64,000 bases of DNA from Nitrospirota bacterium (lineage in GTDB: Bacteria > Nitrospirota > JACRHJ01). The notes beneath the pieces are model-generated. The model made no database searches. It saw only the letters and a program-made list of their open reading frames with translations, and was not told the DNA's origin. Below, one piece after another: positions 42,783 to 48,894 of the stretch (its first letter is position 1; each line of letters begins with the position of its first letter). The position numbers and the translations under genes are program-made. Location of the stretch: contig JAJYHX010000003.1 of NCBI GenBank assembly GCA_021784575.1, positions 248,001 to 312,000 on the forward strand, written 5' to 3'.

Positions 42783-42790
42783 AAAAGCAT
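42783..42790. repeat. target-site duplication, left copy
   Basis: AAAAGCAT directly before the left inverted repeat; identical to 45964-45971 directly after the right one. Eight bp fits IS1-family transposition. Confidence 0.9.
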
Positions 42791-42809
42791 GGTAGTGGGT
42801 CAGTTTGAA
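42791..42809 (+). repeat. left terminal inverted repeat
   Basis: GGTAGTGGGTCAGTTTGAA, exact complement of 45945-45963. Confidence 0.95.
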
Positions 42810-42820
42810 ATTTGCTCCCC

Positions 42821-42853
42821 TTGAAATGCTTGAGCGGTTATGCTATGCTCAAG
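42821..42853 (+). promoter_or_regulatory. promoter and operator-like dyad of the small basic protein gene
   Basis: TTGAAA (42821-42826), 17-bp spacer, TATGCT (42844-42849), about 7 nt before the ATG at 42856, so the message is probably leaderless. A dyad CTTGAGC (42829-42835)/GCTCAAG (42847-42853) covers the promoter. The transposase promoter has the same layout with CTTGA/TCAAG. Confidence 0.6.
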
Positions 42854-42855
42854 AC

Positions 42856-43104
42856 ATGGACAAGCCCAAGAAGAAAAGACCGAGAGACTTAAATCAACTC
42901 GCTAAGGCTATCGTTGACGAGGCCACAGGCGAAGCTCCGCAAGAAGAACCCTCCACAAAGAATCCCGCCGCCGTCGCTTTGGGCCGTTTAGGTGGCCTTA
43001 AGGGCGGCAAGGCCCGCGCTGAGAAGTTATCCGCAAAAAAACGGAAAGATATAGCTAAAAAGGCCGCTCAAGCAAGATGGTCAAATCCCCCCAAGTCAGA
43101 ATAA
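42856..43104 (+). CDS. small basic protein of the transposon
   Basis: An 82-aa Lys/Arg/Ala-rich protein: MDKPKKKRPRDLNQLAKAIV at the start and GRLGGLKGGKARAEKLSAKK with KAAQARW at the end. The GGLKGGKARA-type motif is widespread in short proteins of bacterial mobile regions; a nucleic-acid-binding role is inferred from charge only. The ATG at 42856 lies 7 nt after its -10 box with no ribosome site; the in-frame start at 42805 would be before the promoter and inside the inverted repeat. Confidence 0.75.
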   Translation: MDKPKKKRPRDLNQLAKAIVDEATGEAPQEEPSTKNPAAVALGRLGGLKGGKARAEKLSAKKRKDIAKKAAQARWSNPPKSE

Positions 43105-43207
43105 CCCATATAATCAATAGCTTACGCTTGAATATTTTTTTGAATATTTTTTGTTGATTTTTCTAAAAATCATGCTATCATTTGGAGCATCAAAAGGGAG
43201 GCTTCAA

Positions 43208-43807
43208 ATGAGCATATCAAAGTATCAGGCGAGCGATTTTTTAACTCCGTATCTAAAAGCATTTCAAGCGAGTGCAGACTATGCACAAAAGGAATTTTGG
43301 GGTAAGGGTCTACGAAAATATCGGCCAATAATGCGGGGCCGCACACAGGCAAGCCTCCTATTTGATTTGATGATTCAGGGTTTTTATAATGAGTTTGATG
43401 GAAAAAAAGGTGCATACATCCACGAAAACAAAGGTATCGTTTCCCTTGACTTTGACAGTGGCTTATCGGTTCGGTGCAAGAAAGTAAATAAGAAAAATTT
43501 ACCGAGCTATATCCCGACTACTCAGTCGCTTGCCTACTTTGGCCAACTTGAAATTCCAGGGCTTCCCACATCTGAAAGAATTATTTTCGGATACCGCCTG
43601 AATAAAGCCAAGACAGGATTTGAGATTTTGAACTTTGTCTATTTAAATGGCAAACAAGTAATATGGGAATTGCCACTATCCACCGCCACCAAAGAGAATG
43701 TAGTTGATATACCGGCTAATCAGGAGATGATAGAGCAAGAACTAATAACCACTGATGAGCGGATAGCTGTAGTGGCCGAAATAGACCATGAACAAACAAC
43801 CGAATAA
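43208..43807 (+). CDS. unknown passenger protein paired with XRE-ImmA gene
   Basis: A 199-aa soluble protein with no recognised family. It starts MSISKYQASDFLTPYLKAFQ, has a basic segment (GKGLRKYRPIMRGRTQASLLFD), a beta-rich middle (KGIVSLDFDSGLSVRCKKVNK, IIFGYRLNKAKTGFEILNFV) and an acidic C-terminus (ELITTDERIAVVAEIDHEQTTE). GGGAGG is 6 nt before ATG 43208. It overlaps the next gene by 20 nt, a tight operon, and is clearly more AT-rich than the chromosome. Position and overlap make it the likely partner of the ImmA protein (for example toxin, antitoxin or protease target). Confidence 0.72.
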   Translation: MSISKYQASDFLTPYLKAFQASADYAQKEFWGKGLRKYRPIMRGRTQASLLFDLMIQGFYNEFDGKKGAYIHENKGIVSLDFDSGLSVRCKKVNKKNLPSYIPTTQSLAYFGQLEIPGLPTSERIIFGYRLNKAKTGFEILNFVYLNGKQVIWELPLSTATKENVVDIPANQEMIEQELITTDERIAVVAEIDHEQTTE

Positions 43808-44864
43808 AGATATTATACGATTAGCAAGAGAGTCAAGGGGCTTCACCCAAAAAGACCTTGCAGAGGCTATTCCCACGCCTCAAGGCAATATATCAAAGTG
43901 GGAAAACGGGATGCTCGGATTATCTGAGGACACGCTAAAAAGAATATCTCAGATTCTTAAGTATCCTGAACACTTTTTTTATTTTGACGACCAAATTTAT
44001 GGGCCGGGCATAAGCGGTCTTGGAATTTTTTTTCATAGAAAGAGGCAAAGCGTTTCCAATAAAACGCTTGACGAGATTCATGCTCAAATCAATGTGAGAG
44101 CAATACATCTGAGAAGGCTATTGAAGTCCATACGGCTGAAAAATAATCTATTCAGGTTTTATGACCTGGAAGATTTTAAAGATAAGCCGGAGGATGTGGC
44201 AAAAGCCATCCGTCATCAGTGGGGCCTTCCCAGGGGGCCGGTTGCTAATTTAACGAAGTCAATTGAAAACGCTGGAGGCATTGTAATTGAATTTGATTTT
44301 GGCACGAGGGCGATAGATGCTATCAGCCAATGGATGCCGGATTTGCCGCCGCTTTTCTTTGTAAATAAAAGCTCACCCGGAGATCGGTTAAGGTTTAGCC
44401 TTGCCCATGAGTTACTCCATGTGCTTTGCCATAACCATAAAACATATGACCCAACGAAAGAAGATGAGGCGGATAAATTTGCGGCAGAGTTTCTAATGCC
44501 AAAAGCGGAAATATCTTCTTCTTTGTATGCTCTAAACCTGGCAAAACTTGCGGCCTTGAAAGAGAACTGGAAAACAGCAATGGCTGCTATTTTACATCGT
44601 GCAACCGATTTAGAGAAAATAAAGAAAAGCTATGCTCAGTATCTTTGGATGCAAATGGGTAAATCAGGTTATCGTTTACATGAGCCGATTGAGATACCAA
44701 GAGAAGAACCTTCTTTGTTAAGCAGGATAATAGAGACATACTGTAAAAACTATAATTATTCAATTGAGGAACTTAGCAATCTCTTAGGTCTTTTTGAACA
44801 AGAAACAAAAGACCTTTATTTTCCTCAAAAGAATCGACCTGCTTATTTGTCGGTAGTGAAATAA
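43788..44864 (+). CDS. XRE-HTH / ImmA-IrrE metallopeptidase regulator
   Basis: A 358-aa two-domain protein. Residues about 5-70 are an XRE helix-turn-helix (DIIRLARESRGFTQKDLAEA, TPQGNISKWENG). Residues about 150-260 are an ImmA/IrrE (M78) zinc peptidase with the HExxH motif in FSLAHELLHVLCH and the downstream Glu in EDEADKFAAEFLMP. Such fusions act as stress or prophage regulators that cleave a repressor, or as part of toxin-antitoxin/defence pairs. The 199-aa partner overlaps its 5' end. Base composition matches its partner, not the chromosome. Confidence 0.9.
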   Translation: MNKQPNKDIIRLARESRGFTQKDLAEAIPTPQGNISKWENGMLGLSEDTLKRISQILKYPEHFFYFDDQIYGPGISGLGIFFHRKRQSVSNKTLDEIHAQINVRAIHLRRLLKSIRLKNNLFRFYDLEDFKDKPEDVAKAIRHQWGLPRGPVANLTKSIENAGGIVIEFDFGTRAIDAISQWMPDLPPLFFVNKSSPGDRLRFSLAHELLHVLCHNHKTYDPTKEDEADKFAAEFLMPKAEISSSLYALNLAKLAALKENWKTAMAAILHRATDLEKIKKSYAQYLWMQMGKSGYRLHEPIEIPREEPSLLSRIIETYCKNYNYSIEELSNLLGLFEQETKDLYFPQKNRPAYLSVVK

Positions 44865-44866
44865 AA

Positions 44867-44914
44867 ATAAAGGGTGAATGCGGTAGCGTGGCAGCTTATA
44901 CATTCACCCTTTAT
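44867..44914 (+). terminator. 14-bp stem-loop after the ImmA gene
   Basis: ATAAAGGGTGAATG (44867-44880) pairs with CATTCACCCTTTAT (44901-44914), 20-nt loop; no T-run follows. It ends 5 nt before the tRNA-like gene. Confidence 0.6.
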
Positions 44915-44919
44915 GATTG

Positions 44920-44996
44920 GCCCCCGTAACTCAGTCGGATAGAGTGGACGACTACTAATCGTACTGACGCCAGTTCAAGTCTGGCCGGGGGCTCCA
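44920..44996 (+). tRNA. tRNA-like gene with ACT anticodon, inside the transposon
   Basis: A 77-nt cloverleaf with encoded CCA: acceptor GCCCCCG/CGGGGGC (7 of 7), D stem ACTC/GAGT, anticodon loop CTACTAA (anticodon ACT, codon AGU), five-nt variable loop, T stem GCCAG/CTGGC with loop TTCAAGT. The anticodon stem has a G27-A43 mismatch and the discriminator base is T. Serine tRNAs in bacteria have a long variable arm, which this lacks. The body and loop look like tRNA-Arg(ACG) with G36 changed to T. It could be a decayed tRNA or a working tRNA of odd identity. Confidence 0.75.
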
Positions 44997-45063
44997 ATTT
45001 GTTTTTAAGATAGCATTTTATTTTTTTAAAGTCAAAAAAAATGATTCAATATGACTTTTATGC

Positions 45064-45092
45064 TTGACAGGTCAAGAACAATGTGCTATATT
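45064..45092 (+). promoter_or_regulatory. consensus promoter of the transposase gene
   Basis: TTGACA (45064-45069), 17-bp spacer, TATATT (45087-45092). The ATG at 45100 is 7 nt after the -10 box, so the mRNA is probably leaderless. CTTGA-CAGG-TCAAG (45063-45076) overlaps the -35. Confidence 0.75.
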
Positions 45093-45099
45093 GAAAACC

Positions 45100-45954
45100 A
45101 TGAACAAGTTATCTACAGAAAAGAGGGCACAAGTAATAGGATGCTTAGTGGAAGGCATGAGCATCCGTGCTACTGTGCGCGTTACGGGCGTTGCCAAGAA
45201 TACGATTACAAAGCTCCTGCTTGACCTGAGCCGGGCCTGCTATGACTATCAAGACAAGACCATGCGCGGCCTTAACTGCCATCGGTTTGAATGTGATGAA
45301 ATCTGGTCTTTCTGCTATGCCAAGAGTAAGAACGTCCCGGACGAGTTTAAGGGCATATTCGGATATGGCGATGTTTGGACGTGGACGGCTATATGCTCTG
45401 ATTCAAAGCTCGTTCCGAGTTGGCTTGTGGCAAACCGGACACCAGAGGCCGCTAACGCTTTCATGGAGGATTTAGCCTCACGCCTGAATCATCGGATTCA
45501 GCTTACTACGGACGGCTATAGGGCTTATGCTCAGGCTGTGGAAGGGGCTTTCGGCTGTGATGTCGATTATGCCATGCTGGTTAAAATGTATGGCAATGAC
45601 GGGCCACCGAGTAAGAGTAACCCGGAAAGTAAATATAGTCCAAGTAGCTTCTCCGGCGCAAAGAAGCAGATTATCTCAGGAAGGCCGGACAAGCGGAAGG
45701 TTTCTACCTCAATAGCAGAGCGTAATAACCTGACCATGCGCATGAGCATGAGGCGGTTTACGAGGCTGACCAATGGCTTTTCAAAGAAGATAGAAAACCT
45801 TGAGGCGGCTGTAGCTCTGCATTTCATGTATTACAACTTTGGCAGGATTCACAAGACGCTCAGGGTAACTCCGGCAATGGAGGCGGGAATATCTGACCAC
45901 GTTTGGAGCTTGGAGGAAATAGCGGGCCTGCTTGACGATAAGAATTCAAACTGA
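45100..45954 (+). CDS. IS1-family transposase (single ORF)
   Basis: A 284-aa transposase with an N-terminal helix-turn-helix (KRAQVIGCLVEGMSIRATVRVTGVAKNTITKLLLD) and an IS1-type DDE catalytic domain: FECDEIWSFCYAKSK (first Asp), QLTTDGYRAYAQAV (second Asp) and SIAERNNLTMRMSMRRFTRLTNGFSKK (Glu) followed by FMYYNFGRIHKTLRVTPAMEAG. It is uninterrupted and so needs no frameshift, unlike IS1 itself; this fits the ISMhu11-type branch. Its TGA lies inside the right inverted repeat. Confidence 0.93.
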   Translation: MNKLSTEKRAQVIGCLVEGMSIRATVRVTGVAKNTITKLLLDLSRACYDYQDKTMRGLNCHRFECDEIWSFCYAKSKNVPDEFKGIFGYGDVWTWTAICSDSKLVPSWLVANRTPEAANAFMEDLASRLNHRIQLTTDGYRAYAQAVEGAFGCDVDYAMLVKMYGNDGPPSKSNPESKYSPSSFSGAKKQIISGRPDKRKVSTSIAERNNLTMRMSMRRFTRLTNGFSKKIENLEAAVALHFMYYNFGRIHKTLRVTPAMEAGISDHVWSLEEIAGLLDDKNSN

Positions 45955-45963
45955 CCCACTACC
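45945..45963 (-). repeat. right terminal inverted repeat
   Basis: TTCAAACTGACCCACTACC, exact complement of the left end. Confidence 0.95.
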
Positions 45964-45971
45964 AAAAGCAT
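45964..45971. repeat. target-site duplication, right copy
   Basis: AAAAGCAT, identical to 42783-42790. Confidence 0.9.
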
Positions 45972-45978
45972 GGTATTC

Positions 45979-46008
45979 TTGACATCGAATGCCCTCTGGT
46001 GATATGAT
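45979..46008 (+). promoter_or_regulatory. sigma-70 promoter of ileS
   Basis: TTGACA (45979-45984), 18-bp spacer, TATGAT (46003-46008). The transposon ends 15 bp upstream of the -35 box, so the core promoter is intact but anything further upstream has been displaced by 3.2 kb. Confidence 0.72.
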
Positions 46009-46047
46009 TCCCTATTCCGGCAATACCATAATTATTCAAGGATAATA

Positions 46048-48894
46048 ATGGACTACAAAGACACCCTGAACCTCCCGCGCACGGACTTCCCCATGCGGGC
46101 AAACCTCTCCGCGCGGGAGCTGGATTTCCTCAAGCTCTGGAAGGAGTTAGACCTCTACGGGCTTTTACGCGCGCGCGGCAAAGGCAAGGAGAAGTTCATC
46201 CTGCACGACGGCCCGCCCTACGCCAACGGCCACATCCACATCGGCCACGCGCTGAACAAGATATTAAAGGACATAATCGTGAAGGCCAAGACGATGGAGG
46301 GCTTCGACGCCCCCTATGTCCCGGGCTGGGACTGCCACGGCCTGCCGATAGAGCTTCAGGTGGACAAGGACCTGAAAGGCAAAAAAGACTCCATGCCGCC
46401 GGGCGAGTTCCGGGGGCATTGCCGGGAATACGCAAAGAAGTTCGTGGAGATACAGCGGGACGAATTTATCCGCCTCGGCGTAATCGGGGACTGGCACAAC
46501 CCATACCTCACGATGAACTATCCTTACGAAGCCGCAATCGTCCGGGAGTTCGGGAAGTTCGTCGGCAACGGCGGAGTCTACAAGGGCAAAAAGCCCATAC
46601 ACTGGTGCGCGTCCTGCGTCACGGCCCTTGCCGAGGCGGAGGTGGAATACGCAGACCACGAATCAGATTCGATATATGTGAAATTTAAGTTGGATGGCAC
46701 ATTAGCGTCCTGGGCTAATGAGAGAAATCCCAAAGCAGCCGAAACTCTTAAAGGAATTCAGGACAAAGCAAAAGGCAAATCCGTATATGCCGTCGTCTGG
46801 ACAACCACTCCGTGGACGTTGCCAGCGAATTTGGCACTTAGTGTACATCCTACAAATCGTTATTTATTAGAATATGATAAGGACGCGGATGAATACTTAA
46901 TAATGGCGCTAAGTCATGATGAAGATGGCAAGCCGGGGCATGAGTCCACCTCAGGTATTATCGGCAGAGACTTAGAAGGTCTCAATTTCCGTCATCCCTT
47001 CTTAGATCGTCTCTCCCCTATTTTAGTCGGTGAACACGTGGCTATGGATACGGGCACTGGTATAGTGCATACCGCACCGGGACATGGCCAAGAAGATTAT
47101 GAGATAGGAATGAAATATGGGCTGGACATCTATACTCCTGTGGATGACAAAGGCCGTTTTACGGGCGAAGTGAAATTTTTCGCAGGAATGTTTGTGTTCA
47201 AAGCAAATAAAGCAGTAATCGAAAAATTGGGTGAAGTTAAAGCACTTTTTGGCGCCGAAAAATTAAGACACTCCTACCCGCACTGCTGGCGGTGCAAGAA
47301 CCCGGTTCTGTTCCGCGCGACGGAGCAGTGGTTCATCTCTATGGAGAAGAACGGCCTGCGCAGGAAAGCGCTGGAATACATAAACAAAATTAAATGGGTT
47401 CCGGAATGGGGCATAGACCGCATACGCGGCATGATTGAGAACCGCCCGGACTGGTGCATCTCCCGCCAGAGGTCGTGGGGCGTGCCGATTACGATATTCC
47501 AGTGCGCCGGCTGCGGCGAGCGGCTGATGGACGAAAAGATCGTCGGGCACGTGGCGAATCTCATGGAGAAGGAGGGCGCGGATATCTGGTTTACGAAGGA
47601 CGCAGGCGAACTGCTGCCCGGCGGGACGAAGTGCCCGAAGTGCGGCGGGACGGAGTTCAAAAAGGAATCCGACATACTCGACGTGTGGTTCGACTCCGGC
47701 GTCAGCCAGGCGGCGGTGCTGAAGAAACGTCCTGAGCTTTCCTGGCCCGCGGATTTATACCTCGAAGGGAGCGACCAGCACAGGGGCTGGTTCCAGTCCT
47801 CGCTCCTCGCGTCCGTCGGCACAGTCGGCGAAGCCCCGTTTGCGAGCGTCCTCACCCACGGCTTCACGATGGACGGCGAGGGCAAGAAGATGTCCAAGTC
47901 CAAGGGCAACGTCATCGCGCCGCAGAAGGTAATCGACCAATACGGGGCGGAGATACTTAGGCTGTGGGTGTCGGCGTCCGACTATACGGAGGACGTGCGC
48001 ATCTCCGGCGAGATATTAAAACGCCTCTCCGAGGCGTACCGGCGCATAAGGAACACGGCGCGATACATACTCGGCAATTTATACGACTTCTACCCGGCCA
48101 AAGACGCCGTGCCGTATAAGGATATGGCGGAGCTTGACCGGTGGGCGCTGCACCGCTTCCAGGCGCTGAACAAGAAAATCCGGCAGGCGTACGACGACAG
48201 CCAGTTCCATCTCATATACCACACGCTGCACAACTTCTGCGCCGTGGACATGAGCGCGTTTTACCTGGACATCCTGAAAGACAGGCTCTATACGGAAAAA
48301 CCCGATGGAACCCTTCGCCGTTCGGCGCAGACGGCAATGTACGAGATACTTTCCGGCATGGTGCGGCTGATGGCCCCGGTGCTCTCTTTCACGGCGGAGG
48401 AGGTATGGTCGTTTCTCCCGGCATCGGAAGGAAAAGAAAAGAGCGTGCATCTGGCAAGGTTCCCGGAGATGCATGAGGAATGGATGGATGATGTTCTGTC
48501 CGCAAAGTGGGACGTAATACTCTCGGTCAGGATGGAGACGGCGAAAGCCCTTGAGTCTATTCGTGCAGAAAGAAAAATAGGCCATTCGTTGGATGCGCGG
48601 GTAGACCTTTACGCGGAACCAGTGTTATACGAGTTCCTGGAAAAATACGAATCGGAATTATCTTCAATTTTCATCGTATCGGATGTTGAATTACATCGCG
48701 GACTTGAGAATGCTCCGGCAAACTCGTGCGAATGTAATATCCTAATGCAAGCGATATCCGCAGGTCTTAAAATCTCCGCCTCCCCCGCCGAAGGAGTAAA
48801 GTGCGAGCGGTGCTGGCAGATAAAGAAGGACGTTGGAAGCTCCACCGCCCATCCGACGCTGTGCGGCAGGTGCGCGGGGGTGTTGGGAGGTTAA
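46048..48894 (+). CDS. ileS: isoleucyl-tRNA synthetase
   Basis: Charges tRNA-Ile. 948 aa: HIGH-type motif [14 protein letters not shown] (near residue 54), CP1 editing domain (about 200-405, with [13 protein letters not shown] and [22 protein letters not shown]), KMSKSKGN (near 613), anticodon-binding domain and a C-terminal zinc finger ([16 protein letters not shown]). The DNA coding the editing domain (about 46670-47265) is noticeably more AT-rich with different codon choices (TTA, TTG, GAA, AAA) than the rest, as is a C-terminal patch at about 48540-48775. Both suggest past recombination. Confidence 0.97.

Follow-up and report, generated by a model that had tools for sequence, protein, structure and literature searches.

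Bacterial tRNAs in which body and anticodon belong to different amino acids have been described as allo-tRNAs (Mukai et al. 2017, as reviewed in PMC7609411): the body, mostly that of tRNA-Ser, misfits an anticodon taken from a very diverse set in which UAU is common. Their defining feature is an acceptor domain of 12 bp in the 8/4 or 9/3 form, and one of them, in Edaphobacter C40, overlaps a transposon open reading frame (ORF) (PMC7609411). The tRNA gene considered here lies in a 64,000-nucleotide stretch of a Nitrospirota genome (assembly GCA_021784575.1, contig JAJYHX010000003.1, positions 248,001 to 312,000), hereafter the window, inside an IS1-like transposon labelled W; related loci have labels of the form Lnnn. 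Like the allo-tRNAs, the W tRNA joins a body and an anticodon of different amino acids, but it folds as 7/5 (class I), its variable loop is short and its body is Arg-like, and, unlike theirs, its element, ends, insertion site and many relatives are defined. In fungal Ser-tRNA(CAG) and in engineered mistranslators (PMC11415595) the body is charged despite an altered anticodon, as may hold for the W tRNA, which differs in being natural, bacterial and transposon-borne, its charging being predicted. Bacterial tRNA-Arg species, among them tRNA-Arg(UCU/ACG), share with W the class I fold, A20, C35 and U36, and differ in that the ACU anticodon of W reads a serine codon. The name that would fit best is Arg-type missense tRNA on an IS1-like element.

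The carrier resembles the IS1 family in its short inverted repeats (19 bp in W) and a target duplication of 8-9 bp (8 bp in W). Its DDE transposase matches PF03400 just above the cut-off and the NCBIfam IS1 model below it (56.5 bits, 3e-15; cut-off 100). W-type elements depart from that family in holding passengers of 1-3 kb, with a tRNA in about one in eight. This transposase is a single continuous ORF, and the IS1 family includes single-ORF subgroups. A literature search for tRNA cargo in this insertion sequence group found no description, and several things seem to be new: that the element is defined, that its tRNA cargo is widespread and has recurred, and that it includes Arg-type readers of AGY codons and Leu-type ochre suppressors. 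Mismatched bacterial tRNAs were previously known from metagenomes, and a tie to mobile DNA was suspected; that tie now becomes concrete, in that the transposons are defined, the gains have recurred, the location is always the same and most bodies are those of synthetases expected to accept an altered anticodon. The pattern suggests a recurring habit, on the part of mobile DNA, of tampering with the genetic code.

The W tRNA and its element

A first-pass annotation had described a complete tRNA fold with an ACT anticodon and an encoded CCA, placed in a mobile element, and both statements hold. ARAGORN calls tRNA-Ser(act), the Ser label coming from the anticodon alone, and the Rfam tRNA covariance model (RF00005) matches a full cloverleaf at 44920-44993, scoring 56.9 bits where the gathering cut-off is 29. 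The score, which had it been low was to count against the gene, is ordinary, falling inside the range of the same genome's 40 tRNA matches (50 to 72.6 bits). The full sequence, GCCCCCGTAACTCAGTCGGATAGAGTGGACGACTACTAATCGTACTGACGCCAGTTCAAGTCTGGCCGGGGGCTCCA, is present as a single copy in its genome; its RNA fold beats 200 of 200 shuffles (z -3.8), with a minimum-energy form that deviates in part from the cloverleaf. Pairing by hand gives an acceptor stem of 7 pairs, a D stem of 4 and a T stem of 5, with U at position 73 and the CCA encoded at the 3' end. The variable loop of 5 nt (CTGAC) lacks the long arm of tRNA-Ser and, as the annotation had argued, excludes a normal tRNA-Ser.

The element is delimited by perfect 19-bp inverted repeats, by 8-bp direct repeats, AAAAGCAT, just outside them, and by the empty site in three congeners (L344-L346), where the sequence upstream of ileS is uninterrupted, with one AAAAGCAT-like copy and no tRNA; the bounds given in Table 1 follow from these three features. 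That a chromosomal tRNA gene merely stands beside the insertion is thus refuted, its probability being negligible: the tRNA lies between the terminal repeats, and nothing was found in favour of the idea.

Recurrence of tRNA cargo

A transposase search over bacterial and archaeal genome contigs gave about 580 relatives, of which the best 80 were fetched, and extra relatives were added from the host phylum, from IMG/VR and from the phylum of L034. About 33 relatives have clear inverted repeats and 8-bp duplications, with a total length of 2-4 kb. tRNA genes lie upstream of 20 of the 164 distinct complete transposases (about 1 in 8) and of the incomplete one of L226. The tRNA-bearing elements (W, L034, L037, L041, L050, L062, L075, L081, L086, L091, L098, L099, L122, L137, L160, L175, L199, L208, L221, L225 and L226) come from many phyla and are dispersed over the transposase tree. 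Their tRNAs are all on the transposase strand at a distance of 80-670 nt, those of L050 and L075 being just past a 750-nt limit. Within that limit, and hence with L050 and L075 left outside, nine tRNAs were seen upstream of the transposase among the first 80 loci, oriented loci only, vs 1.4 expected from the flanks, an enrichment of about six-fold (P 2e-5). On the transposase tree, which predates the orientation-corrected locus set and leaves out L137 and L226, tRNA presence changes 16 times, at least 11 of the changes being forced by well-supported branches; gain or exchange of tRNAs is therefore frequent. A scan of IMG/VR for the ACU pattern returned only two real ACU tRNAs, both without a W-type transposase.

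Rfam scores are 35-66 bits for 20 of the 21 tRNA-bearing elements; L137 lies below the gathering score, and its call is that of ARAGORN alone. U33 and a purine at 37 are conserved in 16 of 19 cargo tRNAs. Pairs of related cargo tRNAs point to selection on structure, in two-sequence comparisons that form a small sample. L050 and L075 have in common a Ser-type tRNA(UAA), identical at 85 of 95 positions, with one compensated T-stem pair. In the tRNA-like RNAs L098a and L099a, which have no D arm, paired changes occur in the acceptor and long stems and the loop GTTTGCA is unchanged. L122 and L137 agree in acceptor and T arm and in a large part of the D region, and differ in their anticodon arms (GGU vs CGC) and variable arms; the anticodon arm therefore looks like the exchanged part of a cargo tRNA.

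Bodies, anticodons and identity elements

Nearly all cargo tRNAs have a body that mismatches the anticodon, as judged against 64 reference tRNAs, a modest set taken mainly from the host and its relatives. The W body scored 32, 31 and 29 with Arg references and 30 with Asn. Arg is also nearest for L081, L091, L221 and L225, and for L034 it comes, uncertainly, after Trp. Leu-type bodies are found in L041, L086b, L160 and L175, and Ser-type bodies in L037, L050, L062, L075, L122, L137 and L226; L208, with a long variable arm and G73, was given no type. Five bodies with A20 (W, L034, L081, L091, L225) have ACU or GCU anticodons (Ser AGY), with C35 and U36 in all. The Leu-like bodies bear UUA (stop UAA), AGA, UGG and UGC, the last three matching Ser, Pro and Ala codons, and the Ser-like bodies bear UAA, UAG, UCG, GGU, CGC and UAU, which correspond to Leu, Arg, Thr, Ala and Ile.

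The bacterial Arg identity set consists of A20, C35 and U or G at 36, with A or G, and U also listed, as discriminator; that of Leu is A73 and a large variable region, and that of Ser is G73 and a large variable region, the anticodon being in neither (PMC9976931). LeuRS and SerRS accordingly do not require the anticodon (PMC9976931; PMC11415595). W has the tRNA-Arg determinants A20 (D loop GGATA), C35, U36 and U73, and its ACU pairs with AGU (Ser), not with an arginine codon. All five Leu-like tRNAs (L099b included by its D arm) have A73. The Ser-like tRNAs are about half G73 and half U73, and charging of the latter is less sure because the published Ser set has G73. Taken together, most bodies would fit synthetases indifferent to the anticodon (Leu, Ser) or to base 34 (Arg). 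The first-pass annotation was right that the W anticodon loop is one base from CTACGAA of tRNA-Arg(ACG), but it is equally one base from CTTCTAA, the loop of the genome's own tRNA-Arg(TCT).

Some cargo genes are unusual in other ways. Leu-type tRNAs with the anticodon UUA, which would be natural ochre suppressors, occur in L160-L163 (IMG/VR; about 3781-3866 in L160) and in L175 (3776-3859), on contigs classed as viral. The tRNA-like gene at 5643-5750 of L086 measures about 105 nt; its variable arm is very long, and base 33 is C. The Gly-like tRNA at 5850-5924 of L098 resembles a frameshift suppressor in that its anticodon loop (CTTCCCAC) has 8 nt. tRNA-like RNAs of 67-68 nt with an acceptor and a T arm and no D arm are present in L098 (5769-5838), L099 (5712-5782) and L037 (5294-5363), each adjoining a second, fuller tRNA.

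Decoding and its alternatives

Structure, position, element boundaries, recurrence and the mismatch of body and anticodon are established; what the W tRNA does is a matter of weighing. A decaying tRNA-Arg, a tRNA that puts the wrong amino acid at AGU codons and a decoy had been proposed at first, and mis-insertion has the best support of these: Arg is nearest, narrowly over Asn, A20, C35 and U36 are all present, and there are four similar elements. We therefore favour, at about an even chance of its being correct, the view that W carries a chimeric, decoding-competent, Arg-chargeable missense tRNA as transposon cargo, one of a set of suppressor tRNAs gained repeatedly. Its body would have retained the determinants of arginyl-tRNA synthetase (ArgRS), A20, C35 and U36, with base 34 changed to A. 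By the published identity rules, ArgRS would load arginine on the tRNA, and the ribosome would put Arg at AGU; were A34 converted to inosine, AGC and AGA could be read as well. The tRNA would then compete with host tRNA-Ser(GCT), giving a Ser-to-Arg substitution that should be partial because an ordinary tRNA-Ser(GCT) is expected in the host. The assembly is without that gene, and a host truly without it was considered and rejected: in congeners Ser(TGA), Ser(GCT) and Arg(ACG) stand together in a single cluster, the whole of which is missing here, so that an assembly gap is most likely.

Several observations weigh against this missense reading. The genome's own tRNA-Asn is among the four tRNAs nearest to W, and Asn is almost as close as Arg. 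The W anticodon stem has 4 pairs and, on top of them, the G27-A43 mismatch already noticed in the first pass, and the first pair of its D stem is A10-U25. Among the relatives, U33 is missing in L041, L199 and L086a, the anticodon loop differs in the Arg-like L221, and the D-armless RNAs cannot decode normally. At 84 potentially misread transposase codons, conserved residues favour the standard meaning (log-likelihood 250), and the transposases do not avoid the codons that their tRNAs would misread.

Recoding of a transposase by its own tRNA is ruled out, the affected codons being at positions that conserve the standard residue, and there is no private code, since the transposases use the misread codons in their normal sense. 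Enrichment of these codons in transposases is weak and non-robust (combined z 1.9, permutation P 0.04). Aligned UUA codons of L050 and L075 are almost always opposite other Leu codons, with one UUA/UCA pair, and a search for in-frame UAA in the ochre-suppressor elements L160 and L175 found none in a convincing gene. Because codons are neither recoded nor avoided, strong constant mistranslation is unlikely: the tRNA must be expressed conditionally or at a low dose.

The arrangement of W may offer a route to such conditional expression. Only 5 nt separate the tRNA from the hairpin before it, which leaves little room for a promoter, and the promoter scan upstream of the tRNA yielded no more than a weak promoter-like site, which ends at 44917; co-transcription with the helix-turn-helix (HTH)-peptidase operon directly upstream is thus plausible. 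HTH-peptidases of this kind control phage and defence genes. The option that we favour is conditional mistranslation: the missense tRNA may be expressed with or after the passenger operon once the HTH-protease regulator is relieved, and might act as a stress, addiction or anti-phage factor, a speculative benefit for which no option is firmly ranked. Suppressor tRNAs, both missense and nonsense, would have entered the transposon family on many occasions, each time in the place immediately before the transposase gene. A broader generalization, that a widespread bacterial transposon family repeatedly gains and retunes missense and ochre suppressor tRNAs via the anticodon arm and employs mistranslation, under certain conditions, as a toxin, for addiction or against phages, is tentative, and we think it more apt to fail than to hold.

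Rather unlikely, and the most serious of the alternatives, is that the tRNA is made and does not decode, being an RNA part of the element: it might serve a passenger protein as partner, decoy or antidote, and the preceding hairpin and the tRNA fold would be there for protein binding. The decoy of the first pass survives in this wider form: some related elements (L037, L098, L099) do have D-armless tRNA-like RNAs, with covarying stems and a conserved loop in L098 and L099, structured hairpins precede several tRNAs, elements with class II tRNAs often have a coiled-coil and winged-helix protein, and misread codons are not avoided in transposase genes. It accounts poorly for the full cloverleaf, U33, purine 37, Leu-type discriminator and CC or CCA end of most cargo tRNAs; moreover the coiled-coil protein is missing from W, and an HTH-peptidase like that of W also occurs free of a tRNA (L096). 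Decay of a captured host tRNA-Arg, its anticodon changed by a random hit, is less probable still and should be considered unlikely. G27-A43 and A10-U25, the single copy, the lack of a close W relative and the partly broken anticodon and acceptor stem of the Arg-like L091 would suit it, but about 21 elements have mismatched tRNAs that fold well and for the most part score in the ordinary Rfam range, in the same position and strand and mostly with U33 and purine 37, the five A20 tRNAs agree in anticodon type (A/G34, C35, U36), and paired changes preserve stems. Random decay in other copies had been proposed as evidence against a working tRNA; the comparison came out against decay, on distant relatives only, because no close copy of the W element was found.

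Very unlikely, finally, is charging of the W tRNA with another amino acid (Ser, Asn or Gly), which would make it a normal or slightly unusual isoacceptor, of use to the element in hosts poor in AGY-reading tRNAs. AGT makes up 7 of the 24 Ser codons of the W transposase vs 2.8 expected, but SerRS needs the long variable arm that W is without, and congeners have an ordinary tRNA-Ser(GCT). The nearness of the genome's tRNA-Asn would suggest Asn, but AsnRS requires a GUU anticodon. U73, G1-C72 and C2-G71 occur in Gly tRNAs (PMC9976931), but GlyRS reads C35 and C36, and W has U36.

Should the cargo tRNAs work as missense or nonsense suppressors, errors in translation would count among the functions that mobile elements carry as cargo, and genome annotation should class such tRNAs as cargo, not as oddities. 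Why natural suppressor tRNAs of these kinds exist can now be tested directly, in laboratory strains.

Other features of the elements

Table 1. Features of the W element (window coordinates)
Feature	Position	Strand	Evidence
Whole IS1-like transposon, 3173 bp	42791-45963	+	Terminal repeats, target duplication, empty site in three congeners
Left 8-bp target-site duplication, AAAAGCAT	42783-42790	.	Occurs once at the empty site in L344-L346
Left terminal inverted repeat, GGTAGTGGGTCAGTTTGAA	42791-42809	+	Identical or near-identical in about 33 related elements
Small basic protein (MDKPKKKRPRD...ARWSNPPKSE)	42856-43104	+	ORF list; start set by comparison with relatives
Passenger protein, 218 aa	43151-43807	+	ORF
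Passenger HTH + IrrE/ImmA-like metallopeptidase (phage-type regulator, RmrA-like)	43788-44864	+	PF01381, PF06114
14-bp hairpin with inner AGC-GTGGCA-GCT hairpin	44867-44914	+	Ends 5 nt before tRNA
tRNA gene: anticodon ACU, Arg-type body, encoded CCA	44920-44996	+	ARAGORN, Rfam, body comparison, folding
Anticodon loop CTACTAA	44952-44958	+	Anticodon ACU 44954-44956; U33, A37
Probable transposase promoter, TTGACA-17-TATATT	45064-45092	+	Consensus match only
IS1-like DDE transposase, 284 aa	45100-45954	+	PF03400 26 bits, cut-off 24.1
Right terminal inverted repeat	45945-45963	-	Pairs with left repeat
Right target-site duplication copy, AAAAGCAT	45964-45971	.	As left copy, empty site

The small basic protein, which many related elements also have at their left end, probably binds DNA; a Pfam search with it gave no match. 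For the 218-aa passenger, Pfam, PADLOC and PHROGs gave no significant match, and NCBIfam one match of only E 0.12. The HTH-peptidase matches RmrA in PADLOC (8e-59) and phrog_2439 (9e-79). A passenger protein that combines a coiled coil with a winged-helix-like C-terminus, not present in W, is found in L037, L041, L050, L062, L075, L086, L098 and L099, and L122, L208 and L225 have proteins that resemble it; it is mostly confined to tRNA-bearing elements, only L038 otherwise having it among about 298 passenger ORFs.

Hairpins of the design seen in W, in which an inner 3-bp hairpin closes NTGGCN, stand before the transposase in L041 (3008-3053), L055 (2895-2943), L160 (3704-3748), L225 (1208-1250) and L117 (reversed; 1953-1997). 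Their stems are variable and the loop is conserved, they are often directly before a tRNA, and Rfam has no family that matches them. W has inserted into the short gap (window 45971-46048) that precedes the isoleucyl-tRNA synthetase gene ileS. A short repeat near a congener's tRNA-Ser genes (L334, 1361-1462) recurs in partial form, in about 35 copies, in the genome that contains the window. The same genome has a second transposase of the W kind (G000:C6:57863-58678, L033), 52% identical, with no tRNA seen upstream.
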